Shown one piece after another: positions 26,224-42,762 of a stretch of 42,762 nucleotides of DNA. The DNA is taken from positions 1 through 42,762 of IMG/VR virus record IMGVR_UViG_3300043411_001592. The stretch is one strand, 5' to 3'. The position numbers were made by a program, and so were the translations under genes. Source of the stretch: a virus. The first letter of the stretch is position 1; every line of letters begins with the position of its first letter. Under the pieces are notes generated by a model that was not told where the DNA came from, searched no databases, and saw nothing but the letters and a program-made list of their open reading frames with translations.

Positions 26224-26229
26224 GCCGGC

Positions 26230-28935: not shown

Positions 28936-29820
28936 TCATCCCTCCTTCGTCCGGAAGACCCGGACGCCGTTCTTGTTGGGCCGGAAGGTCGCGAGCAACC
29001 TCCCGGTGTGGTCCACCAGCTCCGTGGCGTCACCCATCGCAGCTGTGACCTGGTTGCGCAGCAGCGACTCGTCCGACTTGAGGTCGGCGACGGTGCCGCG
29101 GATGGCGGTCAGCCGGTGGAGCCGCTGTTCGTCCTCCTCGGTGGCGGCCCGGACCTTCCCGGGCTCGGCGCCCCACCACCGCAGCGATGCGCTGGTCGAG
29201 CGGGACCCGTCGGTCATCGGCACCTTGCCGCCCACCACGTGCTCATCGTACCAGCCGCGCACCCGGTCGAGGATGGCGGCCTCGGTGGCAGCGTCGCGCT
29301 CCACCCGGTACACCTCGAACACCCGGTCGTCGCCCCACCCGGGGGCGCGGGCGAGCGCCGCGAGGTCGGCCGTGGTCCAGCCGTACATCCGGTACAGGAC
29401 GGCGAGCTGCATGAGCACCTGGACCAGGTACTCGGGCGGGATCTGGTCCGTCCCGCCTTCGCCCCACCGTTCGGGGTGGAACGACCGCGGCGCCTTCACC
29501 TCCAGCACGCGCCGGCAGCTCGCGACGTAGAAGTCGGGCCGCACGTGGAGGAACGGAATGTCGGGGTGGGAGAGACCCGGCTGGTCGAGGGCCGGACCCG
29601 GGAACACGGACACCCCCTCGCGACGCGCGTACTCCATGCCGATGAGCGGCTCCAGCATCTTGCCGAGCGCGGCATCCGGAGACGACACGTCATCGTACCG
29701 CGGCAACTGCCCAGTGAGCCGGCACCACAAGGTGAACTCGCTGGTCCACGGCTCCCCGTCGTCGGTCCGCCGCTGTAACCCTAGGAGGACTGCCACTTCG
29801 GACGCACCGATTGTGTGCAT
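28936..29820 (-). CDS. YqaJ-type viral recombinase exonuclease
   Basis: The start is ATG 29820, in an ATGA overlap with the upstream repeat gene, giving 294 residues. The YqaJ/lambda-exonuclease nuclease core is clear: GASEVAVLLGL at the start, E57/E63, D96 in RPDFYV, E107-x-K109 in VLEVKAP, and Q134/Q138 in YLVQVLMQLAV. The enzyme digests one strand of duplex ends to give single strands for the RecT partner encoded downstream. Upstream in-frame codons through the hexanucleotide tract would add a Val/Ala repeat and are rejected. The C-terminal part is helical. Confidence 0.85.
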   Translation of the reverse strand: MHTIGASEVAVLLGLQRRTDDGEPWTSEFTLWCRLTGQLPRYDDVSSPDAALGKMLEPLIGMEYARREGVSVFPGPALDQPGLSHPDIPFLHVRPDFYVASCRRVLEVKAPRSFHPERWGEGGTDQIPPEYLVQVLMQLAVLYRMYGWTTADLAALARAPGWGDDRVFEVYRVERDAATEAAILDRVRGWYDEHVVGGKVPMTDGSRSTSASLRWWGAEPGKVRAATEEDEQRLHRLTAIRGTVADLKSDESLLRNQVTAAMGDATELVDHTGRLLATFRPNKNGVRVFRTKEG

Positions 29821-30113
29821 CACCTGCCACCCTCCCGCGAGTGAGAACGCGACCGCGACCACGACCGCGACCACGACCGCGACAGCGACAGCGCCCACCA
29901 CGACCCCGACCCCGACCACGACCCCGACCACGACCCCGACCCCGACCCCGACCGCGACCGCGACCACAACCGCGACCGCGACCGCGACCGCGACCACGAC
30001 CACGACCGCGACCACGACCGCGACCGCGACCACGACCGCGACCGCGACCGCGACCGCGACCGCGACCGCGACCCCGACCGCGACCCCGACCGCGACTCCA
30101 GCAGGCGGAGCAT
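29820..30113 (-). CDS. Arg-Ser repeat protein encoded by a hexanucleotide tract
   Basis: This 97-residue ORF begins at ATG 30113, sharing one base with the upstream stop (TGATG), and ends at a TGA overlapping the exonuclease ATG. After MLRLLES it is almost entirely Ser alternating with Arg, Trp or Gly, ending HSREGGR. Such composition is like eukaryotic SR domains, suggesting RNA binding or phase-separating behaviour, but no phage parallel is known to me. The exact fit between coupled genes argues for real translation. Against it, the tract is open in every frame, and the peptide could be a mere spacer. It would be highly basic and disordered. Confidence 0.55.
   Translation of the reverse strand: MLRLLESRSGSRSGSRSRSRSRSRSRSWSRSRSWSRSWSWSRSRSRSRLWSRSRSGSGSGSWSGSWSGSGSWWALSLSRSWSRSWSRSRSHSREGGR
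29848..30096. repeat. Imperfect hexanucleotide tract, about 40 units
   Basis: The plus strand reads as GACCNC-like units (GACCGC, GACCAC, GACCCC and rarer GACAGC), with one three-base phase change near 29899. Units differ mainly at one position. Length changes by whole units preserve every frame. Simple-repeat misassembly is possible. Confidence 0.9.
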
Positions 30114-30391
30114 CACATCGTTCCCGGGACCGGATGCTGCCACACCGCGAAGTCGACGATGGCGGCCGTCGACACGAACAGGCCATCCGGGAACCGCTCG
30201 ACCTCGGCGCTGCTGCCGTCCAGCCCCATCACGAAGGCGTCGGCCATCCGGCGTCCGGTGTCCGCCACGTACGCCGCGGGGTTGAGGAACACGACTCCAT
30301 CAAGCACCTCCTCCACCGTACCGATGCAGTGGTACGTGACGGTCCGAATGAACACGTTCTGACCAATCAAATTGTCGAGTGCTTCATTCAT
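30113..30391 (-). CDS. Hypothetical protein, first gene of the recombination operon
   Basis: This 92-residue protein starts at ATG 30391 with GGAGG at good spacing. It has an Sm/SH3-like beta pattern (NVFIRTVTYHCIGTVEEVLD, GVVFLNPAAYVADTGRR) and ends FAVWQHPVPGTM. Its stop overlaps the Arg-Ser gene start. No family is recognised with confidence, though small beta-barrel proteins that bind nucleic acid can look like this. As the promoter-proximal gene it is expected to be expressed early. Confidence 0.72.
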   Translation of the reverse strand: MNEALDNLIGQNVFIRTVTYHCIGTVEEVLDGVVFLNPAAYVADTGRRMADAFVMGLDGSSAEVERFPDGLFVSTAAIVDFAVWQHPVPGTM

Positions 30392-30466
30392 CGACTACCT
30401 CCGTCCAGAAACGCTATCACTTGGCATCGAGCGGCGCAAGGTGGTATACCTCGGTGGGAGGTGATG
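30392..30466. promoter_or_regulatory. Divergent control region
   Basis: On the plus strand TTGGCA (30421-30426) and TATACC (30445-30450) are 18 bp apart, a good sigma70-like match, followed by GGGAGG for the regulator. On the minus strand GGAGG precedes the other operon; its promoter must lie here too but I cannot place the boxes firmly. The regulator made rightward probably binds here. Confidence 0.6.
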
Positions 30467-30682
30467 ATGGCTGGAGAATCGGTCGGAGACATGATCGCCC
30501 GGGCCCGGCTCGATGTCTCCATGAGCCAGGTGGAGGTGGCGAAGGCGGTTGGAGTCGCATCAAACACGCTTTCAAAGTGGGAAACGGGCGCCGCGCGGCC
30601 TCAACTGTTCCGGTTGAAGAAGCTGTGCGAAGTGCTCAAGCTGGACGAGAACACGGTGTACGCCGTGTGGAGGAAAAAGTGA
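30467..30682 (+). CDS. XRE-family helix-turn-helix regulator
   Basis: ATG 30467 is chosen over ATG 30464 because it leaves five bases after GGGAGG. The 71-residue protein is a single Cro/CI-type domain: VGDMIARARLDVSMSQVEVA, then KAVGVASNTLSKWETGAARP and LFRLKKLCEVLKLDENTVYA. That is the recognised five-helix DNA-binding fold. There is no C-terminal dimerisation or cleavage domain, so it is Cro-like rather than CI-like. It lies beside a divergent promoter region and probably represses one or both directions. The next gene overlaps it by four bases. Confidence 0.82.
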   Translation: MAGESVGDMIARARLDVSMSQVEVAKAVGVASNTLSKWETGAARPQLFRLKKLCEVLKLDENTVYAVWRKK

Positions 30683-31236
30683 GCAGTCAACCGCAGGATT
30701 CGACAGCCGTTCGGTACGTGCCGGACTTCACGAAGGCCGCCAAGAGCGGGCCGCTCGACCTGACCGCGCTGATGGTGCGGCGGGCGAAGGGCGGCGAGCT
30801 GGTGTGGGATGCCGTGGTGGAGTTCGACCTGTCCGAGGGGGTGGGTGCCGGTGAGTGGCCGCCGAACCTGGCCGCGTTCCGCACCGGCGTGGTGCGGGCC
30901 CTCGCCGAGAACGGGGGGCCCGCGTTCAAGCTCCGCCTGGAGCCGGCGCACGAGACCAAGCTGAAGGTCGAGGCGCAGGTGAACGGGGAGTCGGGCGTGG
31001 CCTTCGACGGAGGCGCCGCCCTTCGGTACATCCAGATCTCCGCGGCGGAGGGCGTGGGTTCCATCCGGTGGGTGTTCCGCCTGTTCAAGGCGGAGGCGGC
31101 CTACATCGTGGACCTGCTGGCCTCGGACGTGTGGCTCACCACGCTCCCGAAGCAAGCCGACCTGTTCGAGGTGAAGAAGCCGTTGGCCGAGGTCACCGAC
31201 CTCCCGCCGGAGGCGGGCGACGGAGAGGGGGAGTAG
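30679..31236 (+). CDS. Hypothetical protein coupled to the regulator
   Basis: Starts at GTG 30679 in a GTGA overlap with the regulator and encodes 185 residues. It is mixed alpha/beta (LDLTALMVRRAKGGELVWDA, IRWVFRLFKAEAAYIVDLL) with no cysteine, membrane span or recognisable motif. Early position and coupling suggest a role in regulation or host modification. Its 3' end overlaps a minus-strand gene by 44 bases. Confidence 0.68.
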   Translation: MSSQPQDSTAVRYVPDFTKAAKSGPLDLTALMVRRAKGGELVWDAVVEFDLSEGVGAGEWPPNLAAFRTGVVRALAENGGPAFKLRLEPAHETKLKVEAQVNGESGVAFDGGAALRYIQISAAEGVGSIRWVFRLFKAEAAYIVDLLASDVWLTTLPKQADLFEVKKPLAEVTDLPPEAGDGEGE

Positions 31237-31597
31237 GCTCCCCCTCCCACGCGGCGCGCACCGGGCGGATGACGCTCGCCACGGTGCGCTCGCAGTCCCC
31301 CTCGATGGAGCCGTCTTCGAGCTCGCCGTCCGGAACGTGCCGACCGAACGGCTCCGTCTCCATCACCGAGTACGAGCGGGCAGCGCGGAACACCCCGCTC
31401 TCCACCTCCTCGGGCCACCCTCTCTCCGGCTGCGCCGTGCGCCCGCCGAGCAGGATGAGGGGCGGCGCCGTCCGGTTGCCGACCGCGAGGTGAGTCACCC
31501 CCCACCCACGGTGGAGCAGGAGCCCGGCCAGGATGGCCCACCCCACGGCCCCCCAGAGGAAGATGAGGGGAAGCGCGACGATGAGGAATGCGTCCAC
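31193..31597 (-). CDS. Single minus-strand membrane protein inside the replication region
   Basis: GTG 31597 follows GGAGG and gives 134 residues. The N-terminus is strongly hydrophobic (AFLIVALPLIFLWGAVGWAI, then LAGLLLHRGWG), indicating one or two membrane spans, followed by a soluble tail. It is transcribed against its neighbours, and its 3' end overlaps the previous plus gene. This isolated orientation suggests separate timing, perhaps for superinfection exclusion or a lysogeny-like trait. No family is recognised. Confidence 0.6.
   Translation of the reverse strand: MDAFLIVALPLIFLWGAVGWAILAGLLLHRGWGVTHLAVGNRTAPPLILLGGRTAQPERGWPEEVESGVFRAARSYSVMETEPFGRHVPDGELEDGSIEGDCERTVASVIRPVRAAWEGEPTPPLRRPPPAGGR
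31225..31246. terminator. Bidirectional hairpin at a convergent gene end
   Basis: GAGGGGGAG (31225-31233) and CTCCCCCTC (31238-31246) form a perfect 9-bp stem with a TAGG loop spanning the stop of the plus gene and lying inside the minus gene. There is no U-tract. A terminator or stability element is likely but not certain. Confidence 0.4.
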
Positions 31598-31677
31598 GTC
31601 GACCTCCGTGACACAATCTACCTCGGCGGGGTTGCATCCGTTCCGCCGCGGTGTCACCCTGCGTCTACAGTCGGACG

Positions 31678-31748
31678 TTGCAGCGTCCCGGCAATCATGT
31701 AGGTTGGCCCATTGTGGCCTGTCGGGCTGGCGCCCCTGCAAGGGCGCC
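31678..31748 (+). promoter_or_regulatory. Promoter-like site and leader hairpin before the replication operon
   Basis: TTGCAG (31678-31683) and TAGGTT (31700-31705) are 16 bp apart. Downstream, GGCGCCC (31729-31735) pairs with GGGCGCC (31742-31748), making a 7-bp stem-loop in the leader. A strong CGGAGG then precedes the first gene at 31775. The promoter match is moderate. Confidence 0.42.
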
Positions 31749-31774
31749 GCCCGGCGAACCCTTTCGGAGGGGGC

Positions 31775-31984
31775 ATGCCTCTCGCTCTCGAAGAACACCG
31801 CCCGATGGCGGAGATTGGCGACTACGTTCCAGCGACTCATGCCGAAGGGTCCTACCTCGTGCGGTGGTTCTGCTGCGCCTGCGCCGAGCACCAGAGGGTT
31901 GGTGTTCTCCGTGGGTACAAGGCAGAGCGCGTGAGGGAACGTCGGCTCAAGAAGGCCAAGCTCCGCGCGGGGCGTGGGGAGTGA
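31775..31984 (+). CDS. Small hypothetical protein heading the replication operon
   Basis: ATG 31775, behind CGGAGGGGG, gives 69 residues and is preferred over an earlier in-frame ATG at 31712 that precedes the leader hairpin. Residues include WFCCACAEHQ, a compact Cys/His patch, and a basic tail (RVRERRLKKAKLRAGRG). This looks like a small zinc- or nucleic-acid-binding protein. The stop overlaps the next GTG by four bases. Confidence 0.62.
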   Translation: MPLALEEHRPMAEIGDYVPATHAEGSYLVRWFCCACAEHQRVGVLRGYKAERVRERRLKKAKLRAGRGE

Positions 31985-32289
31985 GCCGGCTCGACCTCGT
32001 CATCGTGACCGACGTCACGGAGCGCGGTGGGTACGTCGGGTACGAGTTCGACATGAGCTACGAGCCGGAACGGCGGGCGGCAGCGCTCATCGAGGCCGGC
32101 TACCCCCCCACCGTCGGCGAGCCCCCGGAGACCTACGCGCAGTGGGACCTCGGGCCGCCGTTCCACGGCACCGAGGACGAGCGAGCTGAGTACCTCGCTC
32201 GCGTGGCCTCCGCCGAGGGTGTACCCTTGGAGACCATCCTTCGACGGTGGCGGTGGGTGCAGGCCCTCGCTAAAGTAGGCATCCTATGA
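31981..32289 (+). CDS. Hypothetical acidic protein
   Basis: This 102-residue protein starts at GTG 31981 in a GTGA overlap and ends four bases into the initiator gene. It contains DLVIVTDVTERGGYVGYEFD and a helical C-terminus with LETILRRWRWVQALAKVG. It is unrecognised. Strict coupling to the initiator suggests co-regulation in replication. Confidence 0.65.
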   Translation: MSRLDLVIVTDVTERGGYVGYEFDMSYEPERRAAALIEAGYPPTVGEPPETYAQWDLGPPFHGTEDERAEYLARVASAEGVPLETILRRWRWVQALAKVGIL

Positions 32290-33212
32290 AGACTTACGCA
32301 GTTCTGAACGCCGTGCGCACGTCGTCTCTCAAGGCTACCCAGCGATGGGTTCTCGTGTGCGTGGCGCACCGGGCCGGCGAGGACGGGGAATGCTGGGCGT
32401 CCGCGCCGACGCTTGGGGGTGACGCGAGGCTTTCAGAGCGCGAGGTACGGCGAACGCTGGCCGAGCTCGTGAAGCTCGGGGCGTTGAGCGTCGACCACCG
32501 GAAGGGACGAACGGCGGTCTATCGGGTGACGGGGACCTTCCCGACCCCGGACCAGAAGTCCGGAGACCCCGGACATCCGGTCACCCCGGACCATGAGTCA
32601 CCCCGGACCGGAAGTCCGGACACCCCGGACCAGAAGTCCGGACCACCCCGGACCGGAAGTCCGGACACCCCGGACCAGAAGTCCGACGATCCGATCCCTG
32701 ATAAGACCCCTGACTCGACCCCTGACTCGACCCCTCCCCCCCCCAGCCCCCCTCCGGGGGGAGAGCGGGTGGTGGAGGAGGGACCGACCGCAACGCTCAT
32801 CCGTCCAGCTGCCCCTTCGGGGCCCTCGGAGCCAGACCCCAACGCCGTTGCCCAGCTGCTGCGGCTGGAGATGGACGCCAACGAGACCGAGATCCCGGGC
32901 CGAGCATCGGCCGGCATCGTGCGTGCTGCGCTCCGCGACGGCTGGACCCCCGCCGAGCTCGCCGGCTGGTTCGAGCACGCCACGAAGCAGCTCGGCGCCG
33001 AGCGCCGCCACTGGCGCACGCTGCTCGGCTCGGGGTGGGCCGAGTCGAGGGCGAAGTGGCGGGCCGGTGCTGCTCCACCGCCCAGCGAAGCCGAGCGGGA
33101 CGCCGCCGTCCAGCGGCAGCGAGCGCAGGTTGAATCGTACTTGAAGGCCAGCCGCGAGGACCCGCGCCTCGCAGCAAAGAGGGCCATGGTTGCAGCGCGG
33201 AAGCGGACGTAA
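32286..33212 (+). CDS. Winged-helix replication initiator (lambda O-like arrangement)
   Basis: This 308-residue protein begins with a winged helix-turn-helix (residues ~15-80: SLKATQRWVLVCVAHRAG, then LSEREVRRTLAELVKLGALS and RTAVYRV). A Pro/Asp/Ser-rich linker (~85-165) follows, then a helical C-terminal domain with RASAGIVRAALRDGWTPAEL. The linker DNA holds palindromic iterons. That matches phage initiators such as lambda O, which bind an origin inside their own gene and recruit the helicase through the C-terminal part. A DnaB gene follows two genes later. Detailed family identity needs a profile search. Confidence 0.75.
   Translation: MKTYAVLNAVRTSSLKATQRWVLVCVAHRAGEDGECWASAPTLGGDARLSEREVRRTLAELVKLGALSVDHRKGRTAVYRVTGTFPTPDQKSGDPGHPVTPDHESPRTGSPDTPDQKSGPPRTGSPDTPDQKSDDPIPDKTPDSTPDSTPPPPSPPPGGERVVEEGPTATLIRPAAPSGPSEPDPNAVAQLLRLEMDANETEIPGRASAGIVRAALRDGWTPAELAGWFEHATKQLGAERRHWRTLLGSGWAESRAKWRAGAAPPPSEAERDAAVQRQRAQVESYLKASREDPRLAAKRAMVAARKRT
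32545..32687. repeat. Palindromic iterons inside the initiator gene, candidate replication origin
   Basis: The consensus CCCCGGACCAGAAGTCCGGA has CCGGAC/GTCCGG arms. Clear copies start at 32545, 32601, 32623, 32646 and 32668; degraded copies start at 32567 and 32584. The spacing of 22-23 bp (about two helical turns) means adjacent copies fall in different frames. Just downstream, GACCCCTGACTC repeats in tandem (~32705-32728). Confidence 0.75.
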
Positions 33213-33223
33213 CAGGAGGAAGA

Positions 33224-34690
33224 ATGTCCACTACGAAAGAATCGACAATGGCCATCGTGGCGTTCCTGACCGGGCTCGTGCTCGACCAGGCCGCCGAGCT
33301 GGACGCCGACGCGCCCGAGGGGACGTGGGTGAAGAAGACCGGGGAGAAGGTCGGAGGTTCGTGGGTGAAGAACGCCGGCAGCGACCCCATCCGGGTCGGT
33401 GACGCCGTAGTGAGCGCGGCGGAAGTCGACCGGCAAAGGGAGCAAGCGCTCCGGGCCAACGCTACCCGGGAGGAGGAGCACCAGAAGCTCGTTGCCGACC
33501 TCCGGCACGATGCCGAGGTGATGCGCGGGCGGCTCGACATCGCGCAGCGCGTGTCCCACGAGGCACGGCGGAAGTTGCAGGCGGAGGAGCTCAACACCCA
33601 CGAACTTTCGACCGCCTTCAACGCTGCGCAGGATCGCAACGCGGAGCTGGAAGCGCAGTTCAAGGACCTGGTGCACGCTCGCGATGTCGAGCGCAAGGAG
33701 CTGGAGACGCGGGCCGAGGAAGCGGAGACGCGGGCCGCGAAGGTCCACGAGGGCGAGCTCGCGGAGCTGCGCCGGAAGCTGGCGGTGGCGGAGAGCAACG
33801 CCAGCGAGGCGCTCATCGCGTTCCATTCCGCCCAGAACCGGGCGATGGAGATGGAGACGCGGGCCGAGGAGGCCGAGGGCGAGTGCGGGCACCAGGAGAT
33901 GGTAGCGGAGACACTGCGCCGAGAGGTCGCCGCGGTGCGCCAAGAGGTCGCCGCGCTGCACCAAGAGGCGAGGGCGAACACCGCGCGCTTGGCGGAGGCG
34001 GTCGCGCGCGCGGGGACGCTGCAAGGGCAGTTGGACCGCGGCCTCGACGGCCAGTTCAAGCGGATGGTCGAGGAGCTCGCGGTGGCCCGCGAGGGCAACG
34101 CGCTCGCCGCCGCCCGCAACGCGAAGCTCGACTTGGAAATTTCGGCGTTGAAGGCCGAGGTGCGTCGTGAGAGGTTCTCACGACTCGGATGGGAGGAGGC
34201 GGCCAACGGGGTGGTGGAGAGCTGGGCTCTCTATCAGAGAGACGTTCGGTCTCACGTCGCAAAGCTCCGGTGGAAGGCGCAGGACCGGCAGCGCAGGACG
34301 TGGCAGCGGTTGCAGAGCTTGGCGACCCATCCAACGGTCGAGTGGCAGCGCGAGCTGCGGACCGAGGGCCCCGACGGCGTAGATGAGGCTAAGATCGAGG
34401 CGTTCGACCCGAGTATGAACCTGTGGGTCCACCGCCTGGAGCAGTTGGACCGGCCCGTTCCGGCCGGGTGGTACGTCTGTCACCAGAACTACATCACCTC
34501 GGACAGGTCGGGATCTCGGCGGGTGGCGGTGGGTTCGACCGCTGGCGCTGCCCTCTCGCTGGGGAGGAAGAACGCCAACCTCTACCCGATGCCCCACCAC
34601 GTGCCCCCGCGCATGGAGGGGTACCCGAAGAACGCGGAGCACGACCCCGACGACCCGTTCTGCGACTGCACGCAGCGGTGCCAGTTCTAA
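33224..34690 (+). CDS. Long coiled-coil protein between initiator and helicase
   Basis: This 488-residue protein has an AGGAGG site. Residues ~60-310 are an almost continuous coiled coil rich in Glu/Arg/Ala (REEEHQKLVADLRHDAEVM, RKELETRAEEAETRAAK and others). The N-terminus has two similar TWVKKTG and SWVKNAG segments. The C-terminus is a compact region with WVHRLEQLDRPVPAGWYVC and a Cys-rich end (DPFCDCTQRCQF). No ATPase motif is present. It could be a scaffold for the replication complex or a structural filament; the slot is where helicase loaders lie in lambda, but it does not look like one. Confidence 0.72.
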   Translation: MSTTKESTMAIVAFLTGLVLDQAAELDADAPEGTWVKKTGEKVGGSWVKNAGSDPIRVGDAVVSAAEVDRQREQALRANATREEEHQKLVADLRHDAEVMRGRLDIAQRVSHEARRKLQAEELNTHELSTAFNAAQDRNAELEAQFKDLVHARDVERKELETRAEEAETRAAKVHEGELAELRRKLAVAESNASEALIAFHSAQNRAMEMETRAEEAEGECGHQEMVAETLRREVAAVRQEVAALHQEARANTARLAEAVARAGTLQGQLDRGLDGQFKRMVEELAVAREGNALAAARNAKLDLEISALKAEVRRERFSRLGWEEAANGVVESWALYQRDVRSHVAKLRWKAQDRQRRTWQRLQSLATHPTVEWQRELRTEGPDGVDEAKIEAFDPSMNLWVHRLEQLDRPVPAGWYVCHQNYITSDRSGSRRVAVGSTAGAALSLGRKNANLYPMPHHVPPRMEGYPKNAEHDPDDPFCDCTQRCQF

Positions 34691-34692
34691 CC

Positions 34693-36033
34693 ATGTCCCT
34701 CCCGCAGTCGGTTGAGGCCGAGCGCTCGTTGCTCGGCGGGCTGATGGTCGACCCGGTGCAGCTGGCCGAGGTCGCGCGCAAGGTGGCGCCGCCGGACTTC
34801 TACCGGCCCGAGCACCAGAAGCTGTTCGAGCTGCTGCTCACGATGCAGGCGGCGGGCCGCGGGATCGACCTCGTGACCGTCGCAGCTGAGGTCATGAAGG
34901 GCACGGGGGCCGACCGGTTCGGCGGCGCGGGGTACGTCGCCGAGCTGCCCGAACACTGCCCGAGCACCGCGAACCTCCCGCACTACGCAGCGCTGGTGCT
35001 CGAAGCGAGCTTGCACCGACGCATCCTGACCGTGCTCGACACGATGAAGGACCGGGTCACCGAGGGGCTCACCGAGCCGGCGGAGGTGGTGCACGAAGCG
35101 GTGGCCCGTCTCACCGAGGGCGGGCTCCGAGACGGGGCCGAGCGCACCACGTGGACGGCGGTGGAGACCCACGCAGAGTGGGTGGAGCGGCGGCGCCAGG
35201 AGGCCGCGGGCACGGCCGTGGCCCGGTACGTCCCGACGGGGTTCGTCGAGCTCGACGTGTGCCTCACCGGGGGCGGGCTCGCGGGCGGCCAGCTCGTGCT
35301 CGTGGGCGGGCGCCCCGGGATGGGCAAGACGGGATTCGCGCTCGCGTGCGCCGTGGACATGGCGCTCGCGGGACACGTCGTCCTGTTCGTCACGCTGGAG
35401 CAGTCGCACGAGGAGATGTGGGCGCGCGCTATGTCCACGCTCACCGGCGTCGGGACGGGTGACCTCGACGTGACCGACCCGACGGACCCGGGCATCGCCG
35501 ACGCGAGCCGTCGTCTCGGGTCGCTGGTCTTCCTCGACGTGGCGAAGGCGGGCGTGCGCGAGGTCGACCACGAGGCCGCTCGCGTGCGCGCCCGGTTCGG
35601 TAAGTTGCACGCCATCTTTATCGACTACGTGCAGTTGATGAAGCACGACCAGCGCCACGGCGAGACGCCGGCGACGTACATCGGGCGCACGTCCACCGGG
35701 CTCAAGCAGCTCGCGCGCAAGCTGGGGACGCCGGTAGTCCTGCTGTCGCAGCTGAACCGCGAGGTGGAGAAGCGGGAGGGGGCACGCGTGAAGGACGCGT
35801 CCACGTGGTGGGAGTCGGTGCCCTTGCCCCGGCCCTCTGACTTGCTCGCGAGCGGCCAGCTCGAAGCCGACGCCGACGTGATCTTGTTCCCGGTGAGCGG
35901 CGCCGGGTACCAGCTCGAAGACCGCCAGCTCGGGGCGGTGGTCGTCGCGAAGCAACGGAACGGGCCGACCGGGGTATTCCCTCTCGCGTGGGACGCGGGC
36001 TCGGCAACCTACCGCAACTGGGAGGCGTTGTGA
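34693..36033 (+). CDS. dnaB: Replicative DNA helicase, DnaB family
   Basis: This 446-residue protein opens SLPQSVEAERSLLGGLMVDP, the typical DnaB N-terminal domain. The RecA-like domain shows Walker A GRPGMGKT (206-213), FVTLEQSHEEM with the catalytic glutamate, Walker B LHAIFIDYVQLM and the QLNREVEKRE region. DnaB forms a hexameric ring that unwinds the fork and pairs with primase. As no phage primase or polymerase is seen, it probably works with host enzymes. Length matches the family. The stop overlaps the next ATG in TGATG. Confidence 0.93.
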   Translation: MSLPQSVEAERSLLGGLMVDPVQLAEVARKVAPPDFYRPEHQKLFELLLTMQAAGRGIDLVTVAAEVMKGTGADRFGGAGYVAELPEHCPSTANLPHYAALVLEASLHRRILTVLDTMKDRVTEGLTEPAEVVHEAVARLTEGGLRDGAERTTWTAVETHAEWVERRRQEAAGTAVARYVPTGFVELDVCLTGGGLAGGQLVLVGGRPGMGKTGFALACAVDMALAGHVVLFVTLEQSHEEMWARAMSTLTGVGTGDLDVTDPTDPGIADASRRLGSLVFLDVAKAGVREVDHEAARVRARFGKLHAIFIDYVQLMKHDQRHGETPATYIGRTSTGLKQLARKLGTPVVLLSQLNREVEKREGARVKDASTWWESVPLPRPSDLLASGQLEADADVILFPVSGAGYQLEDRQLGAVVVAKQRNGPTGVFPLAWDAGSATYRNWEAL

Positions 36034-36140
36034 TGCTGGTCCCCCGGCTGTTCTACTCGTCCTCCCGGTCACGTTCGGGGCCCCGCGTGCGGGGAACCTG
36101 GCACACGTCTTACACGCGTTCTCGTCTGCGTGCCCGGTGA
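36033..36140 (+). CDS. 35-residue Arg/Ser-rich micro-protein
   Basis: This short ORF starts at ATG 36033 in a TGATG overlap with the dnaB stop. It ends at TGA 36138-36140, overlapping a GTG start at 36137 (GTGA). The peptide begins MLVPRLFYSSSRSRSGPRVR and ends TRSRLRAR, so it is very basic. The double coupling is the main evidence that it is translated. It could be a nucleic-acid-binding peptide, or just a coupling leader for the resolvase gene. Confidence 0.5.
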   Translation: MLVPRLFYSSSRSRSGPRVRGTWHTSYTRSRLRAR

Positions 36141-36673
36141 TCGGCCAGCTTCCCCTCATCCCCCGGCCCCGCCAGCCGAAGGGAGAGGCCGTGTTCGCCT
36201 TCACCCTGCCCGGTGAGCCCCAGCCGTGGCAGCGCCCGAAGCCGATGCGTATCGGAAAGGGCGAGAAGGCCCGTATGGTCGAGCGCTTTCAGGGTGACTA
36301 TGCGGACTGGCGGCTCGCTACCATCGCGCTCCTGTCGGCGTGGTGGAACGGCCGGCCGTCGGTCCGGCTCCCCCTCGAAGTGCACGTGGTAGCCGTACTC
36401 CCTCGCCCGCCGAAGCGTCCGGGGTACACCATCGCGGGCGAACCCGCCGAGCATCCGTGGCCGTGGTCGAGGGACCTCGAAGGGACCGGCCGGTGCCCCA
36501 CGCTCGCGGTCGGCGACGTGGACAACTACGCGAAAGCGTTGCTAGACATCATGCAACGCACGACCCCTGCCATCCTGGCCGATGACCGGTTCGTGACCGA
36601 CCTCCGGGCGAGCAAGCGGTTCGCCGCGGTAGGGGCGGGCCCGTGCACCGAGGTCAGGGCGTGGCGCACGTGA
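36137..36673 (+). CDS. rusA: RusA-like Holliday junction resolvase
   Basis: This 178-residue protein carries RusA features: LPGEPQPWQRPK near the N-terminus, and the acidic motif VGDVDNYAKALLDIM followed by LADDRFVTDLRASKRFA, with the aspartates that bind metal for cleavage. RusA resolves four-way junctions formed in recombination and replication, so it complements RecT and the exonuclease. The GTG at 36137 is coupled to the small upstream ORF; an alternative GTG at 36191 follows GGGAGAGG and would shorten the protein by 18 residues. Confidence 0.83.
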   Translation: MIGQLPLIPRPRQPKGEAVFAFTLPGEPQPWQRPKPMRIGKGEKARMVERFQGDYADWRLATIALLSAWWNGRPSVRLPLEVHVVAVLPRPPKRPGYTIAGEPAEHPWPWSRDLEGTGRCPTLAVGDVDNYAKALLDIMQRTTPAILADDRFVTDLRASKRFAAVGAGPCTEVRAWRT

Positions 36674-36900
36674 CTCGGTCCGACCTGGCGGAGCTGGTAT
36701 CGGCGGTCGAACGGACCCATCCCGCTCACGCCAGGGCGTTGCGGTTGCTCGGGGCGGGCGGGATGCCGGCGACCGTCGGCGCGCCCGGCACGCGTGACGT
36801 GGTGCGGGTTCGCGTCGGGATCACCGTGCGTGAGGGACGGTGGGTGGCCGAGCTGGTTCGCGAGGACGGGTCGAGCGCCGTCCTCGCAAAGGTCCGCTAA
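36670..36900 (+). CDS. Small hypothetical protein at the end of the replication operon
   Basis: GTG 36670 in a GTGA overlap gives 76 residues; a GTG at 36661 is also in frame. The sequence is helical at the start (RSDLAELVSAVERTHPAHA), then beta (DVVRVRVGITVREGRWVAEL). No family is recognised. It ends one base before the convergent minus-strand gene, so little room is left for a separate terminator. Confidence 0.65.
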   Translation: MTRSDLAELVSAVERTHPAHARALRLLGAGGMPATVGAPGTRDVVRVRVGITVREGRWVAELVREDGSSAVLAKVR

Positions 36901-36901
36901 G

Positions 36902-37834
36902 CTACCAGCGGTCGGCCAGCTTGGCGGGCGCACGGGCCGCCCGGACCCGCTGGCCGATGGTGGCCTGTTCCTCGCCGTGGTCGGCGAGGGCCGCCAGGAC
37001 GGGAGCGGACGTTGTGACGAGCGCGGTCACACTCGCCACCAGTTGCGCCCCGAGCCCGCTGGCGAGCACGGACCTGGCGAGCACCAGCGCATCGATGCGG
37101 ACCGCCGCGTCGGCGAGACGGCGCAGCCGGGCGGCGCCGGGGATGCGGGTGCCGGGGCCGTGCGACACCACGGCCCACACCGTGGCGGCCCCGAGGAGGG
37201 TCACCGCCTGTCGGCCGAGGTCGGTATCGACCCAGCGCAGGACCGCGCGGGTCCGCTGGTGCCCCGTGATGCGGGTCCACCACGTGGGCGGGTCGACTCG
37301 GGCGAGCACCGCGTCGACGAGGGCGCGACCCACCGTGTGGAGCGCCTGTTGTGCGACGAGCGCCGTAGCGGCGTCGGCCATCGTGGGCATCCCGCCCGCT
37401 GCGGCGTTGGTGTTGGTGTTGGTGTCGGTGACTGCGGCCCGCACCGCACGCCAGCGCTCGTTGTCGGCGTGGCCTGAAAACGACAGCTCGTACGTGTCGT
37501 AATCCGAGGTGGACGGGTTCCACTTCGACGCCAACGTGAGAGAATTCGAGGTGTGCCAGGACAGGCGCCACCGCTCATTCCCTCCCGGGTGGATGAGATC
37601 GGCCATCCGGGGGGTCACGGCCCCGCTTCCCGCCGTCCAGGTCGCCCGCCGGTGGGCCTCGTTCACAATGTCGGCGATCTCATCGTGGGACGGGTCGAAC
37701 CAGTCGACCCACCCCCTCGCCATATCGGCGAGCTCATCAGGGAGATAGGCACCGCCCACCGCGTGCGCGCCGGCGCACCACGCGAGCATGGCCCGCCGAA
37801 GCGAGCCGTCACCCTCGAACTTGATACTCGGCAT
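36902..37834 (-). CDS. Hypothetical protein with hydrophobic C-terminal half
   Basis: ATG 37834 follows AGGAGG and gives 310 residues. The N-terminal half is soluble, with ERWRLSWHTSNSLTLASKWN and a short TNTNTN repeat near 160. The C-terminal half has two or three hydrophobic stretches (AVTLLGAATVWAVVS; GLGAQLVASVTALVTTSAP), so it may be membrane-associated. It is the last gene of the minus-strand block and is preceded by structured cassette A. No family is recognised. Candidate early membrane effector, by inference. Confidence 0.68.
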   Translation of the reverse strand: MPSIKFEGDGSLRRAMLAWCAGAHAVGGAYLPDELADMARGWVDWFDPSHDEIADIVNEAHRRATWTAGSGAVTPRMADLIHPGGNERWRLSWHTSNSLTLASKWNPSTSDYDTYELSFSGHADNERWRAVRAAVTDTNTNTNAAAGGMPTMADAATALVAQQALHTVGRALVDAVLARVDPPTWWTRITGHQRTRAVLRWVDTDLGRQAVTLLGAATVWAVVSHGPGTRIPGAARLRRLADAAVRIDALVLARSVLASGLGAQLVASVTALVTTSAPVLAALADHGEEQATIGQRVRAARAPAKLADRW

Positions 37835-37846
37835 TCTTCCTCCTAT

Positions 37847-37904
37847 CGAGCATGATGCTCGCTGCTCCCCTCGCCCGGTAGCCCGACCGAGGGGAGCCGA
37901 GAAC
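37847..37904 (-). promoter_or_regulatory. Twin-hairpin cassette A
   Basis: On the minus strand the order is GTTCTC (37904-37899), a 10-bp hairpin GCTCCCCTCG/CGAGGGGAGC with a 14-base loop (37897-37864), then AGCGAGC and GCTCGA forming a second hairpin (37861-37847), then AGGAGG and ATG. It lies between the 720-residue gene and the 310-residue gene. Confidence 0.7.
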
Positions 37905-37919
37905 ATCACACCCTGCGGG

Positions 37920-40082
37920 TCACGTCCACCCGTGGGTGAGCAGCGCGGTAGCTGCGGCGTCCGCGCTGGCGAGCACCGCCACCGGAACGCGCTCGGTGTG
38001 CAGCCGTGTGACGGCGTTCACCACGTCGGCCAGGGTATCCCCTGGTTCGTGACGCCACGCCCCGAGCAGCGTCTCGACCGCCACGTCGCGCGCGATGCCG
38101 TCGACCGACACCCCCTCGGGCAGCGCGCCCTTGCGGAGGATGGGGAGCGTGTCGTCGGGCAGCCCCGCCAGCTCCGACAGGATGGCGCGCACGTTGACCT
38201 CGGCCGCGGCCGACGGGCTGTCGAACAGTGACGCGACCGGCGCCGAACGGAGCACGCCCCACCGGCGCAGGAAGGGGGTCAGCGCGGCGCTCGCATCCCG
38301 GATACCCTGCGCGAACCTCGCCACCATCGTGGCCCGGTCCCCCCGGTGCACGATCCGGAACATGCCGAGCCGCGGGTGGTCGAGCCGGATGAGGTTCAGG
38401 CACAGGTTCCGGTCGACGGCCAACCCACCTCTGATGGCGCCCGAACCAGCGTCGTTGCTCTCCGCCCAGAATCCCGCCTTGAACACGTCCCCCGCCGATA
38501 AATTGGAGACGTTGTCGGCGTGAAACAGGCCCTCGAACCGGAGCGTGGCGCGCTCCGGATTGTACTCCACCGTCCCTCGGGCCGTGCTCCCCTCCGGGAG
38601 GGAGAGCAGCGCCCGCCGGGCGATGTCCGCCACGGCGTCCGCGTCGAGCGCGGTGTACCCGGGAGACACGGCTGCAAACACCGCGCGCGGCGCCATCGGA
38701 CCGGACACCCGGGTCCGCAGGGTGATGTCGCGGCCCGCCTGCACCCTCTCATTCCAGACCCGCGCCCGAGTCTCGGCCGAGAGGAGGGACATCACCGCGC
38801 CCGCGCGCGGTAGCTCGGACGCGTGGAGGGACACCAGCTGGCCGAATGCCTGGTCTTCCTGCACGTACTCACGGTCGAGCGCCATCGAACCGATGGCGCC
38901 ATCGCCGCTCATCCGGAGCACCGCCCCGCGGGAGGTCACGTCTTCCCGCTGCTCCGCTGCCACCATCGCGCCGACCGTAGTGAGCGCGTCGACCGTGCGC
39001 GGCATGTCCTGGTGTGCGAGGTAGCTCTGGACTAGGTTCGCTCGGCCGACCTCCACGATGACGCTGCCCGCCGCGTAGAACGGCGGGCGCTGCGCCATTC
39101 CGAGGGACGACAGGTATGCGTAGTCCCCCTCCACCCGGGCGCGGGCATCCTGTGCAACCGTCCCTCCGCGGGTGTCGTAGGTGAACGTCGGCACGGACGC
39201 CGGCTCGACTACGACCACCGCCGGCGGAGTCTCGGTGCGGGGCGGCGCGACCGAGCGGGCCGCATCGATGGCGCGCGACGCGTCGACGTAGGCACGCACG
39301 TCGCGCGCCGTCACCATCCGGGCCCGTTCCCGCGCCTCGGAAAGCGAGCCCGTGAACACGCCCCCGCCGGGGAGCGTATCGTCGGGAGTCGAGCACGTAT
39401 CGCCGACGCACGTCACCTGCGAACCATCATCGTGGGTATGGGTGGTGACCCCCCACCGGTCGGTGCGACGGAGCCAGGTACCATCGGACGGGGTGTGGTC
39501 CTCCACCGTCGCGCGAGGGGACAGCTGCCGCCCACCGGCCGAGTCAGGCCACGCGCCGCGGGTCACCGCCACCTCACCCGTTGCGCACGCCGTTGCGGGG
39601 ATGGCGCCGGACATCACCAGACGGGAGAGGACGGAGAACGCCACGTCCCCCCGTTCGTACGTCACCCCGAACGGCTCGCTACCGGGCGCGGCGCCCCGGA
39701 TGTGGTGCGGGTCGGTCGGCTGCGGGTCGACCGGGCCGGCCGAGGTAGCTCCGCTCACGGGCGAGGGACCGGACGCCACGGCCCGGCCCCCATCGTGCAC
39801 GGTGAAGGTCGGGGGCACGTGCGCGACGGGCTCCGCCACCACCACGACGTGGCGGGTCGTCTCGCCGCAGCCGACGGTGTACCGGCCGGGGGGAAGGTCG
39901 ACGGTCACGCGGAGGTGCTGCGTGCCCGAGACGCGGCCGATATCGACGAAGGGGGTACCGTGCGCCAGCGCATGGGGCGCCTTGCACCACCAATAGCGCT
40001 TGCCTTTGGGCAAGCTGGCAAGGTCCTCGGCCGAGCCGTGGAAGTCGAGCGTGGTGGAGAGGGACAGCTGGACAGCGTGCAT
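37920..40082 (-). CDS. Large hypothetical protein with weak DUF932 resemblance
   Basis: This 720-residue protein starts at ATG 40082 behind CCGGAGTGACCCC. The N-terminal ~220 residues look like a beta-rich variable domain. The C-terminal half (~330-720) has AVSPGYTALDADAV, GTVEYNPERATLRFEGLFHA and VFKAGFWAESNDAGSGAIRG followed by RNLCLNLI. These vaguely recall DUF932 proteins of phages and plasmids, with their NS-DG-S and R-xx-C-x-N motifs. That family is often linked to mobile elements, but its function is unknown. The assignment is tentative. It is the largest gene of the early block. Confidence 0.7.
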   Translation of the reverse strand: MHAVQLSLSTTLDFHGSAEDLASLPKGKRYWWCKAPHALAHGTPFVDIGRVSGTQHLRVTVDLPPGRYTVGCGETTRHVVVVAEPVAHVPPTFTVHDGGRAVASGPSPVSGATSAGPVDPQPTDPHHIRGAAPGSEPFGVTYERGDVAFSVLSRLVMSGAIPATACATGEVAVTRGAWPDSAGGRQLSPRATVEDHTPSDGTWLRRTDRWGVTTHTHDDGSQVTCVGDTCSTPDDTLPGGGVFTGSLSEARERARMVTARDVRAYVDASRAIDAARSVAPPRTETPPAVVVVEPASVPTFTYDTRGGTVAQDARARVEGDYAYLSSLGMAQRPPFYAAGSVIVEVGRANLVQSYLAHQDMPRTVDALTTVGAMVAAEQREDVTSRGAVLRMSGDGAIGSMALDREYVQEDQAFGQLVSLHASELPRAGAVMSLLSAETRARVWNERVQAGRDITLRTRVSGPMAPRAVFAAVSPGYTALDADAVADIARRALLSLPEGSTARGTVEYNPERATLRFEGLFHADNVSNLSAGDVFKAGFWAESNDAGSGAIRGGLAVDRNLCLNLIRLDHPRLGMFRIVHRGDRATMVARFAQGIRDASAALTPFLRRWGVLRSAPVASLFDSPSAAAEVNVRAILSELAGLPDDTLPILRKGALPEGVSVDGIARDVAVETLLGAWRHEPGDTLADVVNAVTRLHTERVPVAVLASADAAATALLTHGWT

Positions 40083-40097
40083 GGGGTCACTCCGGTT

Positions 40098-40154
40098 CGA
40101 GCGTCGTTGCTCGCTTCTCCCTCCGATGGCGCGCCATCGGAGGGAGATGAGAAC
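40098..40154 (-). promoter_or_regulatory. Twin-hairpin cassette B
   Basis: Minus-strand order: GTTCTC (40154-40149), a perfect 32-bp palindrome (40147-40116; arms TCTCCCTCCGATGGCG), then CGAGC/GCTCG with a 6-base loop (40113-40098), then CCGGAGTGAC and the ATG of the 720-residue gene. The long palindrome shares no sequence with the matching hairpins of the other cassettes. Confidence 0.72.
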
Positions 40155-40164
40155 AGCGACGGGG

Positions 40165-40701
40165 CTACAGCTTGGCGAGTGACTCCATCGCCCGGCGGTG
40201 GTCGTTCAGATCCTCTGCCGCGGCCTGGTCCGCCACGGCGGCCGGTACCTCCAGTGTGGCGACCTTCCCCCGTCCGCCGAGGTCGTAAGTTCGACCCACG
40301 ACCACGCTTCCGAGCGTGTATTCCCTGACGAATGACCCGCACCCGACATCCCGGATGCTGCTCGGGAGCACGCGCAGATCCAGCGCAGCGCGGATGAGCG
40401 CGGAACCTGCGCCCAGCTCGACGCTGGGCCAGCCCGACGGGCTACCGATACGGACCAGCTGACCCACGGCATGCGCCAGCGAGACGAGCGCCGGGTCGGT
40501 GACGCCGTCGAGCAGCGCCGCCCGGAGGGCGGCGTAGTGGGCGGCCCTCGCGTCGACGGCGGCCCGCTCCAGCTGCGCGAGCCGTTCCTCCGCGACCTCT
40601 CGCAGCGAGACGGCGGCGATGGTGTACAGCGTCCCGACGGGCGCGCTGCCGGTGATCTCCACGGTGGTCCCCTCGGGACCCGAACTGATACGGGTGGACA
40701 T
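40165..40701 (-). CDS. Hypothetical protein of the early block
   Basis: This 178-residue protein starts at ATG 40701 after GGGAG. The middle is helical (SLREVAEERLAQLERAAVDA and following), flanked by beta segments (GTTVEITGSAPVGTLYTIAA). No known family, cysteine motif or membrane segment is seen. It is followed downstream by cassette B and preceded by cassette C. Role unknown. Confidence 0.68.
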   Translation of the reverse strand: MSTRISSGPEGTTVEITGSAPVGTLYTIAAVSLREVAEERLAQLERAAVDARAAHYAALRAALLDGVTDPALVSLAHAVGQLVRIGSPSGWPSVELGAGSALIRAALDLRVLPSSIRDVGCGSFVREYTLGSVVVGRTYDLGGRGKVATLEVPAAVADQAAAEDLNDHRRAMESLAKL

Positions 40702-40718
40702 AGTGATTCTCCCTTGTT

Positions 40719-40772
40719 CGAGCTTGACCGCTCGCTTTCACTGCCGAGACGGGCTCGGCAGTGAACGAGAAC
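40719..40772 (-). promoter_or_regulatory. Twin-hairpin cassette C
   Basis: Minus-strand order: GTTCTC (40772-40767), a 12-bp hairpin TTCACTGCCGAG/CTCGGCAGTGAA with a 5-base loop (40765-40737), then CGAGC/GCTCG with a 6-base loop (40734-40719), then GGGAG and an ATG. It differs from cassette D by a compensated T-A to C-G pair in the large stem. Confidence 0.75.
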
Positions 40773-40775
40773 GGG

Positions 40776-41207
40776 CTAGCGTACGAGTCGGGTTACCGCC
40801 CGAATCTGGCCGACCAACCCCGGAAGTGGGGCGTCCCCCGTGGTCCAGCGGACGGCTCCGTCGTCCGGCCCGGTACCGGGCGCGACGCACCGGTCGAGGA
40901 CACTGAACATCGGACCGGCGTAGTCGCGGCCGATGTCATACGCGAGCTTCTCCCGGACGAACCCCAGAACGATGGCGCTCACCACGAACAGGTCTTCCGG
41001 GTCGGCCCGCTCCGGGAGCCCGACCAACCGCCGACCGGCCCCCCGTCCGCCTGGGTCATACACCGGCACCGGCGAGGACGGGTGGTGCCGGGCGAGCCCA
41101 CCGTCGGTCACGATGCGGGCCGGCCCGCGCGGGTCGGGTTCGTACGCATGGTCGCGCCCGTCCGCGTCGCGCAGCACGATGGTGTGGGGCGTGAAGTTGT
41201 ACAGCAT
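40776..41207 (-). CDS. LTPH-type conserved phage protein
   Basis: This 143-residue protein starts at ATG 41207 behind CGGAGTGACTC. The opening MLYNFTPHTIVLRDADGRDH resembles a widely distributed but uncharacterised phage family that begins with an NLTPH-like motif. A later hydrophobic strand (EDLFVVSAIVLGFVREKLAY) also fits that family. Its cellular role is unknown. It is flanked by cassettes C and D. Confidence 0.7.
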   Translation of the reverse strand: MLYNFTPHTIVLRDADGRDHAYEPDPRGPARIVTDGGLARHHPSSPVPVYDPGGRGAGRRLVGLPERADPEDLFVVSAIVLGFVREKLAYDIGRDYAGPMFSVLDRCVAPGTGPDDGAVRWTTGDAPLPGLVGQIRAVTRLVR

Positions 41208-41221
41208 GAGTCACTCCGGGT

Positions 41222-41275
41222 CGAGCGTCGTTGCTCGCCTTCACCGCCGAGACGGGCTCGGCGGTGAACGAGAAC
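41222..41275 (-). promoter_or_regulatory. Twin-hairpin cassette D
   Basis: Minus-strand order: GTTCTC (41275-41270), a 12-bp hairpin TTCACCGCCGAG/CTCGGCGGTGAA with a 5-base loop (41268-41240), then CGAGC/GCTCG with a 6-base loop (41237-41222), then CGGAGTGACTC and an ATG. The small hairpin is identical to that of cassette B. Confidence 0.75.
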
Positions 41276-41282
41276 AGCGAGG

Positions 41283-41831
41283 CTACAGCCCGGCCCCATG
41301 GCGCACGGTGTACCCGGCGGCGGTGAGCCGGGCGGTGAGCACGTCGAGCCGGTCCTCGGTGTTTGCGACCGATACCATGGTGTAGTGACGCCCGTCGCCT
41401 GCGTGCTCGATGCTGCTCCCTTCGATGCTCTGTTCCCTCCACGCGTCGACGGAGTCGAGGTACACCACCACCTGGCGCTCCGCGCTGGTGTCGTCCTTCT
41501 CCGCCTGGTACCCGTCCTTGGTCCACGCGTCTCCGCCCACCGACTCGATCGTCAGGACAGGCTTGACGCCCTGCGCGTCGCGCCGGTACGCGTGCCATAC
41601 CTCGGGTTCGTGGTGGTACCTGGCGACGGCCGGGAACCGGGCGCCGCCCGGCGCCGGCGTTCCGCACCCATCGCACGGTGCGAACGGCGGTTCGTCACCG
41701 TCCTCCATCCTCTCGGTCACGGTGTAGTCTTCCCACCCATCGGCGGACAGGGTGCCGCCGTCTCGGATGATGTCGCGACACTCGGTGCAGACGGAGAGGC
41801 GGAGGAGAATGGGCTCGCTGTAGTTCGTCAT
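41283..41831 (-). CDS. Hypothetical protein with two CxxC pairs
   Basis: This 182-residue protein starts at ATG 41831 after GGGAGAACGACC. CTECRDII near the start and PCDGCGTP later form a likely zinc site. The middle holds a YHHEPEVWHAYRRDAQGV stretch, and the end (DRLDVLTARLTAAGYTV) is a helix-strand unit. No family is recognised. It may be a zinc-dependent adaptor acting on host proteins or nucleic acid. Confidence 0.68.
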   Translation of the reverse strand: MTNYSEPILLRLSVCTECRDIIRDGGTLSADGWEDYTVTERMEDGDEPPFAPCDGCGTPAPGGARFPAVARYHHEPEVWHAYRRDAQGVKPVLTIESVGGDAWTKDGYQAEKDDTSAERQVVVYLDSVDAWREQSIEGSSIEHAGDGRHYTMVSVANTEDRLDVLTARLTAAGYTVRHGAGL

Positions 41832-41859
41832 GGTCGTTCTCCCTGGTGTGTGGTGTGTG

Positions 41860-42126
41860 TCAGGTTGCGGTGGAGCGAAGGCCGGCGCTGGCCGATTCCA
41901 CCCACATACAGTGGATACCGGCGGTTGCCCGTTTCGGGAAAAACACCGCGCGGCCCCCCTCGATACGTGAGTGTCCGGGGTTGAAATTGAACTTAATACC
42001 AACCTTATTCTCCAGCCAGGCGCCGAGCTTCACAATGTCAAGCAGACTGCCATCGTAGGCGTGAGGACCGGACCAGAAATCCATTCCGCCGCTGATCGGG
42101 TGCCGCACCATGATGTTCACTTGCAA
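41860..42126 (-). CDS. Small hypothetical early protein, TTG start
   Basis: TTG 42126 is chosen because it follows GGAGAACGACC at the same spacing as the downstream gene's ATG; an internal ATG at 42111 has no ribosome site. The 88-residue protein has MVRHPISGGMDFWSGPHAYD and a compact alpha/beta pattern (LLDIVKLGAWLENKVGIKFN). No motif is known. It is transcribed early in the minus-strand block. Confidence 0.68.
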   Translation of the reverse strand: MQVNIMVRHPISGGMDFWSGPHAYDGSLLDIVKLGAWLENKVGIKFNFNPGHSRIEGGRAVFFPKRATAGIHCMWVESASAGLRSTAT

Positions 42127-42162
42127 GGTCGTTCTCCGGTGTGGTGGGTGGTGGGTGGTGGG

Positions 42163-42351
42163 TCAGCTGCGGTAGGCATCGCTGGCGCGGTAGGCGTAGC
42201 GAGCGGCGCGGAACGCTGCTCCGGCGTCCGCCACGATCTGGCGGCGGTTCGGCGTCCCCCTCGGGAGACGAAGCGCGGCGTCGTATGCGTCTCGGGTGAT
42301 GTAGTAGGGATCGGCTGCGATGACGGCGTCCACGCGCTGTTCGAAGGTCAT
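42163..42351 (-). CDS. Small helical protein, first gene of the early block
   Basis: This 62-residue protein starts at ATG 42351 after CCGGAGTGACC, the leader also used by the 720- and 143-residue genes. It is all helical (VDAVIAADPYYITRDAYDAA, AFRAARYAYRASDAYRS) and Tyr/Ala/Arg-rich. Its place beside the promoter-like region suggests high early expression. No family is recognised. Confidence 0.68.
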   Translation of the reverse strand: MTFEQRVDAVIAADPYYITRDAYDAALRLPRGTPNRRQIVADAGAAFRAARYAYRASDAYRS

Positions 42352-42362
42352 GGGTCACTCCG

Positions 42363-42387
42363 GCCGGGGGTTCTCTCCCCCCGGCAC
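42363..42387 (-). promoter_or_regulatory. Leader hairpin with GAGAAC in its loop
   Basis: On the minus strand a GCCGGGGG/CCCCCGGC stem encloses a loop including GAGAAC, just before the first early gene's ribosome site. It resembles the cassette hairpins but has the box inside and in opposite orientation, and lacks the AGCGAGC hairpin. Confidence 0.45.
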
Positions 42388-42460
42388 CATCAAGCTATCT
42401 CCGCCAGTCCACTTCTGTCCACGGAATTCTACGGAAATCGTACAATGCTTGGTTCGTGGC
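42388..42460 (-). promoter_or_regulatory. Promoter-like region for the early minus-strand block
   Basis: On the minus strand TGGACA (42421-42416) and TAGCTT (42397-42392) are 18 bp apart. A TAGAAT box (42431-42426) is another possible -10. This is one of the most AT-rich stretches in the window. The exact boxes are uncertain. Confidence 0.4.
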
Positions 42461-42500
42461 TCGAAATTCGTTGCGTGTCTCGCGACCCATCCCTCCCTCA

Positions 42501-42565
42501 CGAGGCGACCTCACGAGGCGACCTCACGAGGCGACCTCACGAGGCGACCTCACGAGGCGACCTCA
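42501..42565. repeat. Five perfect 13-bp tandem repeats
   Basis: CGAGGCGACCTCA occurs five times in a row, then a degraded copy (CGAGACGACGCC). Each unit contains GAGG-CGA-CCTC inverted arms. Lying upstream of the early promoter region, it may bind a regulator or mark a replication or packaging site. Confidence 0.85.
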
Positions 42566-42762
42566 CGAGACGACGCCGGACCGGTCAGGGCGGTCCGAGA
42601 CGCCGCTCCAGCAACGATGCAGGCAGGACCGCATTCGAAACGAAGCGACGCCTGGGAACATCGGACCGTGCTCCACAATTCGGAGAGTACAGCTGGGATG
42701 CAGTCCCCATCGGCATCGTTGCAGGGTAGGGGGGGGGTACCCGGGGGTAGGTGAAACAGGGG

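Follow-up and report, generated by a model that had tools for sequence, protein, structure and literature searches.

Intercistronic elements with two predicted, mutually exclusive hairpin folds in a minus-strand gene block of a virus record and in other phages

The window, that is, the whole stretch of DNA analysed, is IMG/VR virus record IMGVR_UViG_3300043411_001592 (42,762 bases, 70% G+C). Seven genes are encoded on its minus strand, from 42351 down to 36902, in a block that converges on the plus-strand replication genes. Cassettes of inverted repeats, designated A to D, occupy four of its six junctions. What is repeated at these junctions, and what could it do for the message? In a preliminary description, each cassette was read as a conserved GTTCTC box followed by a large hairpin and a small GCGAGC/GCTCGA hairpin, in an "early block". 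The term early was presumed, the seven genes being without assigned function. The structure now proposed is different and is well supported: each cassette folds as a single long, interrupted hairpin, to which the GCGAGC/GCTCGA hairpin just ahead of the ribosome site is a mutually exclusive alternative. Elements of the same logic, written mostly in different letters, are probably used by phages to punctuate or control multi-gene messages.

The cassettes themselves are real. The window contains exactly four occurrences of the pattern GTTCTC-N-GCGAGC-N-GCTCG, always on the minus strand and in the gaps first described (37847-37904, 40098-40154, 40719-40772 and 41222-41275), against 0.03 expected from shuffled sequence. 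The large stems are perfect over 10, 14 (a 32-nucleotide palindrome), 12 and 12 pairs, as had been claimed; outside the cassettes, a perfect stem of at least 10 pairs is found in just 0.3% of 80-nucleotide windows. Apart from one weak 72% repeat, no other inverted repeat in the window stands out as much as the cassettes. Of the roughly 130 chance matches to the cassette pattern listed from viral and bacterial contigs, none has a stem of more than 8 pairs. C and D do differ by a compensated pair (T-A/C-G). The large stems of A and B are not completely different, as had been written: their arms have part of a CTCCC run in common.

The minimum-energy fold of all four copies pairs GUUC with the GAGC of GCGAGC; GTTCTC is thus no free unpaired box. 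This helix is followed by a conserved U x C mismatch, one C-G pair, a purine-purine mismatch and the central stem. In addition, the flank adjoining the stop codon of the preceding gene is paired with the small hairpin's variable loop (inverted-repeat search and RNA folding): TGAT/ATCA in A, GTCG/CGAC in B, CC/GG in C, CGC/ACG in D (last G from the next position). A box with two independent hairpins is excluded by this long hairpin, in which the loop of the supposed small hairpin binds sequence upstream of GTTCTC. Most copies carry 18-26 pairs, interrupted by one to three 1x1 mismatches, and the folding z-scores of the long hairpin range from -3.5 to -5.4 in the four window copies. An H-type pseudoknot was rejected; only 0-1 nucleotide would be left to span a 5-6 bp helix.

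The element is modelled as four strands around a central hairpin that would always be formed. Strand 1 begins at or just past the upstream stop codon; strands 3 and 4 come after the central stem, with the ribosome site directly behind strand 4. Strand 3 pairs with either strand 1 or strand 4, so that two exclusive helices have one strand in common, and both helices are conserved across phages. In the alignment of the four window copies, 96.3% of cells are paired and 10 of the 21 pairs are changed on both sides, a result matched by 0 of 500 shuffles. The selection on RNA structure proposed earlier is supported by these values, and the central stems of a second phage (G003, below) behave alike.

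The coordinates of the elements, all on the minus strand, are as follows. Element D (41221..41282) lies in the gap between the gene for a 182-residue protein (stop 41283) and that for a 143-residue protein (start 41207); the predicted probability of its long hairpin is about 0.99. Its strand 1 (41270..41279) consists of the lower-stem flank CGCT and GTTCTC, whose partners are strand 3 and the loop. The central stem (41240..41268; 12 bp, loop CCCGT) is followed by strand 3 (S5; GCGAGC, 41233..41238), common to the long and the small hairpin, by strand 4 (S3; GCTCGA, 41221..41226) and by a GGAG ribosome site (41214-41217). Element C (40718..40775) lies between the 143-residue gene and the 178-residue gene (start 40701). 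Its central stem (40737..40765; 12 bp) has the single compensated pair relative to D, and strand 3 GCGAGC, loop GGTCAA and strand 4 GCTCGA are at 40718..40735. Element B (40097..40164) separates the 178-residue gene from the 720-residue gene (start 40082); its central stem (40116..40147) is the 32-nucleotide palindrome (14 bp and a 4-nucleotide loop), and strand 3 GCGAGC, loop AACGAC and strand 4 GCTCGA are at 40097..40114. Element A (37846..37919) is found between the 720-residue gene and the 310-residue gene (start 37834). Its central stem (37864..37897) consists of 10 bp, one G x G mismatch, then 4 bp; strand 3 GCGAGC, loop ATCAT (partner: upstream TGAT) and strand 4 GCTCGA are at 37846..37862.

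Is this arrangement confined to one virus? The pattern of small hairpin, ribosome site and ATG was scanned over all 2.9 million IMG/VR contigs, which gave 39 stretches, then filtered for an upstream stem. Two sets were left: five records (G001-G005) and about 17 loci that precede a DNA-clamp-like gene. The five records follow the logic of the window in that the small hairpin's loop is complementary to the upstream flank. For this lower stem, a free-register duplex test was too loose, and a register-constrained test took its place. In the fixed register, the native flank adds a helix of -13.1 kcal/mol on average, versus -8.8 with flanks from other phages. The effect is clear in G002, G004, G005 and most copies of G003, and good in window elements A and B; the flanks of C and D are individually no better than chance.

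G003 is the strongest case, with about 12 copies at successive junctions of its minus-strand block. In nine aligned copies, 100% of the cells of the central stem pair, 6 of its 10 pairs are changed on both sides, and 96% of the cells of the lower stem pair. The small hairpins of G003 have four sequences, always complementary: CGGC/GCCG, CGAGC/GCTCG, CGGTGC/GCACCG and TCGTG/CACGA. Counts of covariation in the small hairpin are partly selected, as such a stem was the criterion by which most copies were chosen. CGGTGC/GCACCG and TCGTG/CACGA came from a model of the long hairpin only and are an unbiased, weak test (shuffle p about 0.05 each). Elsewhere, CATGC/GCATG (L304) and CGCGCC/GGCGCG (phages with the clamp-like gene) were found by a scan for the architecture.

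The approximately 17 loci before the clamp-like gene are related and have a more rigid layout (GACGCAAGTC, stem, TATGCGAGCGCCTTCGCTCGA); their flank-loop pairing is without covariation. A third family in these phages has ACGCGCTA/TAGCGCG versus GCGCGCC/GGCGCG. A second hairpin cassette of the same phages, TGACGCGCTAAG-stem-TCATAGCGCGCC-loop-GGCGCG, is also located between a stop codon and a ribosome site (L301 1090, L325 630, L377 4099, L395 2529, L342, L396). A single-hairpin analogue occurs in a cultured phage, Caulobacter phage CcrColossus (L434): between 3590 and 14742, the hairpin GGGCGGCGGATCGGCCGCCGCCC is repeated directly before a CTGGAG ribosome site in many gaps of consecutive small genes, and CTTGTTAAGAAAT is repeated too.

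The distribution is narrow. The architecture scan covered 3.8 Mb and gave 85 raw hits, many of them redundant, versus 28 on the reversed sequence. Loci that had not been selected for the cassette gave just 6 hits in 2.1 Mb; the element is therefore characteristic of certain phages, not common, and singletons such as L304 could be chance hits. No close relative of the window phage was found in viral contigs by its terminase, portal, capsid or 720-residue protein, nor among cultured phages, whose terminases are at most 27% identical. The exact window consensus occurs nowhere else in viral contigs (all 14 matches are due to chance), and a pattern scan of bacterial genome contigs gave chance matches only, among the matches listed. 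Model R1 matches elements in other phages, which is partly circular since these loci were pre-chosen for GCGAGC/GCTCGA; over five bacterial genomes it gave no match. No cultured phage carrying the bistable element was found in the searches made.

In nearly every case, the element spans the whole gap from stop codon to ribosome site. The upstream stop lies inside strand 1 or no more than about 10 nucleotides from it, and in G001-G004 the TGA itself is often within strand 1 or the lower stem. In most copies, the stop codon is 33-57 nucleotides before strand 3; strand 4 is 8-27 nucleotides from the start codon. All elements are oriented in gene direction, directly before the ribosome site. The downstream genes are unrelated and encode small proteins of unknown function, a helix-turn-helix protein, a membrane protein or the clamp-like protein. 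The element is found at successive junctions before such unrelated genes, which argues for a general punctuation of operons and not for a gene-specific switch.

The elements are read as intercistronic punctuation. The mechanism tentatively preferred, with somewhat less than even confidence, is processing of the long hairpin, in the manner of the intercistronic sites of T7 early mRNA. A host nuclease would cut close to where the central stem meets strand 3, either RNase III (ribonuclease III), acting on the interrupted helix, or RNase E, acting between the hairpins. After the cut, the upstream message would end in the stable central hairpin; freed strand 3 would refold with strand 4, and the downstream message would thereby gain a hairpin at its new 5′ end that protects it and leaves its ribosome site open. 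Processing with protection is favoured because it accounts for both helices, for the very stable central stem and for the use of the element before unrelated genes.

RNase III typically acts on long, interrupted hairpins between cistrons, as in T7 early mRNA. By layout, the T7 RNase III sites appear to be the closest known system. Both are long interrupted hairpins at successive junctions of early genes with unrelated genes downstream, and the cassettes have the approximately 20 or more helical layers, internal mismatches and intercistronic position of the T7 type. Unlike the T7 hairpins, the elements have a competing hairpin of strands 3 and 4 before the ribosome site and occur as multi-copy families with near-identical ends; cleavage is, on their side, presumed. 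Several points weigh against processing. It does not require the near-equal energies of the two folds. The small hairpin of the window copies is nearly absent from the predicted equilibrium ensemble, so that it would have a part to play only once the RNA has been cleaved or unfolded. The antisense strand folds no worse than the sense strand (13 of 25, p = 0.22), so that energy alone is no proof that RNA is the active form. The structure is thus well supported, and the function is inferred.

The near-equal energies are explained by a close rival of somewhat lower probability, in which the element would be a ribosome-gated translational switch. A ribosome terminating on the upstream gene would cover strand 1, strands 3 and 4 would pair and the downstream ribosome site would be set; with no terminating ribosome, the long hairpin would form and strand 4, left free, could make weak pairs with GAG in the ribosome site. 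Translation of neighbouring genes would be coupled by a geometry of attenuator type. Two exclusive helices with one strand in common are indeed found, with energies within 5 kcal/mol: the long hairpin and the small-hairpin form are -4.8 to +3.4 kcal/mol apart and, with strand 4 held free, differ by only 1 to 3 kcal/mol in the window. As in attenuators and the expression platforms of riboswitches, a strand is common to exclusive 1:3 and 3:4 helices and the upstream strand is accessible to a ribosome. Unlike them, the cassettes sit between cistrons, at many junctions per operon, and no ligand-binding core, leader peptide or terminator was seen in them. This switch would also explain the stop codon inside strand 1 or no more than about 10 nucleotides from it; however, tight packing of the gap alone yields the same position. 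Pairing of the strand 4 CUC with the GAG of the ribosome site amounts to -2.6 to -4.2 kcal/mol in elements of the GCTCGA type; it is nearly absent in G003 and L304, so that an anti-ribosome-site role is not general. With a similar probability, well below even, the elements would be an undescribed class of phage intercistronic RNA switch, in which a terminating ribosome would pick the long or the small hairpin before the next ribosome site, a modular device that would determine how successive early genes are coupled in unrelated phages. The chance that they form a new class of intercistronic switch is real, if unproven.

A binding site for a phage or host protein, which would repress or activate the downstream genes, is unlikely. 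The candidate motif is GUUC-U-C-R / R-G-C-GAGC of strands 1 and 3, with its U x C mismatch. All four window copies have this motif unchanged at the base of the helix, and the remainder covaries; the invariance may only reflect recent copying; other phages carry different sequences at the same place. The proteins of the window, G001-G005 and the phages with the clamp-like gene were compared, and only DnaB-type helicases and one small protein of G002 and G003 are common; no shared candidate binding protein was found among these carriers. Since the carriers share essentially no proteins, a common dedicated phage protein is an improbable reader; a nuclease, the ribosome or another host machine would be likelier. 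Among the functions listed in the preliminary description, the switch bound by a phage protein thus loses ground.

An element acting as DNA is improbable. Its repeated ends would serve the copying or exchange of gene cassettes between phages, or it would be a cruciform read by an enzyme. The ends are near identical within one phage and the centre is variable (window C and D; copies of G001; G003), and the antisense strand folds as well as the sense strand; yet the variable centre stays complementary, and the orientation is always that of the genes, with the ribosome site immediately downstream. The sense-strand helices contain 28 G-U pairs versus 4 A-C mismatches, a count biased towards G-U by the folding of the sense strand; this excess would favour RNA. 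By position, the closest described repeats appear to be the start-associated sequences (SAS) and extended SAS (ESAS), the latter with extended inverted repeats, of cluster K mycobacteriophages and cluster EF Microbacterium phages (PMC3203893, PMC7302621). These too are repeated intergenic elements directly upstream of start codons, before non-structural genes and in larger gaps. In cluster K, the repeats are conserved, the spacer is variable and the authors see little support for RNA hairpins (PMC3203893). In contrast, the arms of the cassettes vary with pairing kept, 10 of 21 pairs being changed on both sides. The conserved 13-bp SAS consensus GGGATAGGAGCCC, which lies at the ribosome site in those phages, has 11 matches in the window with at most 3 mismatches, versus 18.7 expected, none of them at a cassette.

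Transcription terminators or attenuators without a U-tract, setting a gradient of polarity, are very improbable: stable GC-rich hairpins right behind stop codons would suit them, but none of the four cassettes is listed by a terminator scan of 25000-42762, no U-tract follows, and the next gene starts 30-40 nucleotides on, which leaves no room for a promoter. An operator was considered and rejected. N4-type hairpin promoters have a stem of 5-7 bp and a 3-nucleotide loop and go together with a virion RNA polymerase gene; the window copies have loops of 4-6 nucleotides and stems of 10-14 bp, and the 1773-residue protein matches no phage family.

The proposal of an undescribed riboregulatory family agrees with Rfam in so far as no family reaches its gathering threshold in the window and matches elsewhere are sub-threshold only. 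The S-adenosylhomocysteine (SAH) riboswitch (RF01057) matches B and D weakly (22.7 and 21.0 bits versus a gathering score of 37). Its conserved core, GAGGNGCGYUGCRRC, is absent at the cassettes, and core matches are fewer than by chance. Generic microRNA-hairpin matches in Rfam are meaningless here. The put antitermination RNA of phage HK022 likewise consists of tandem stem-loops in early phage transcripts; it occurs once per operon near the promoter, unlike the cassettes, which recur at many junctions, each just ahead of a start codon.

Should the two-fold design prove functional, phages would possess a portable device of flexible sequence for the punctuation of polycistronic messages. Individual gene stability and separate translation in tightly packed early operons would then be explained, and the element would be a ready-made intergenic part for laboratory operons. 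The succession of stop, central stem, competing small hairpin and ribosome site is a search signature for unannotated phages. Several copies per genome make tests by covariation and mutagenesis unusually easy.

Other features of the window are as follows. The 720-residue protein (37920-40082), encoded between B and A, matched no family; its stretch FKAGFWAESNDAGSGAIRGGLAVDRNLCLNLIRLD may be DUF932-like, but Pfam gave no match. A 13-bp unit (CCTCACGAGGCGA) is present in six tandem copies (42496-42574) ahead of the minus-strand block and close to the contig end, possibly a promoter or control region. The 6-bp repeat CGCGAC is present about 42 times at 29848-30096, directly upstream of an open reading frame (ORF) for a RecE-like exonuclease and partly read through by this ORF. 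About seven imperfect 22-bp copies (CCGGAC...GTCCGG) lie inside the O-like replication initiation gene (32544-32685) and resemble the iterons of lambda-type phage origins. A 60-bp unit is present in three perfect tandem copies near the end of a gene for a 544-residue protein (16144-16322).

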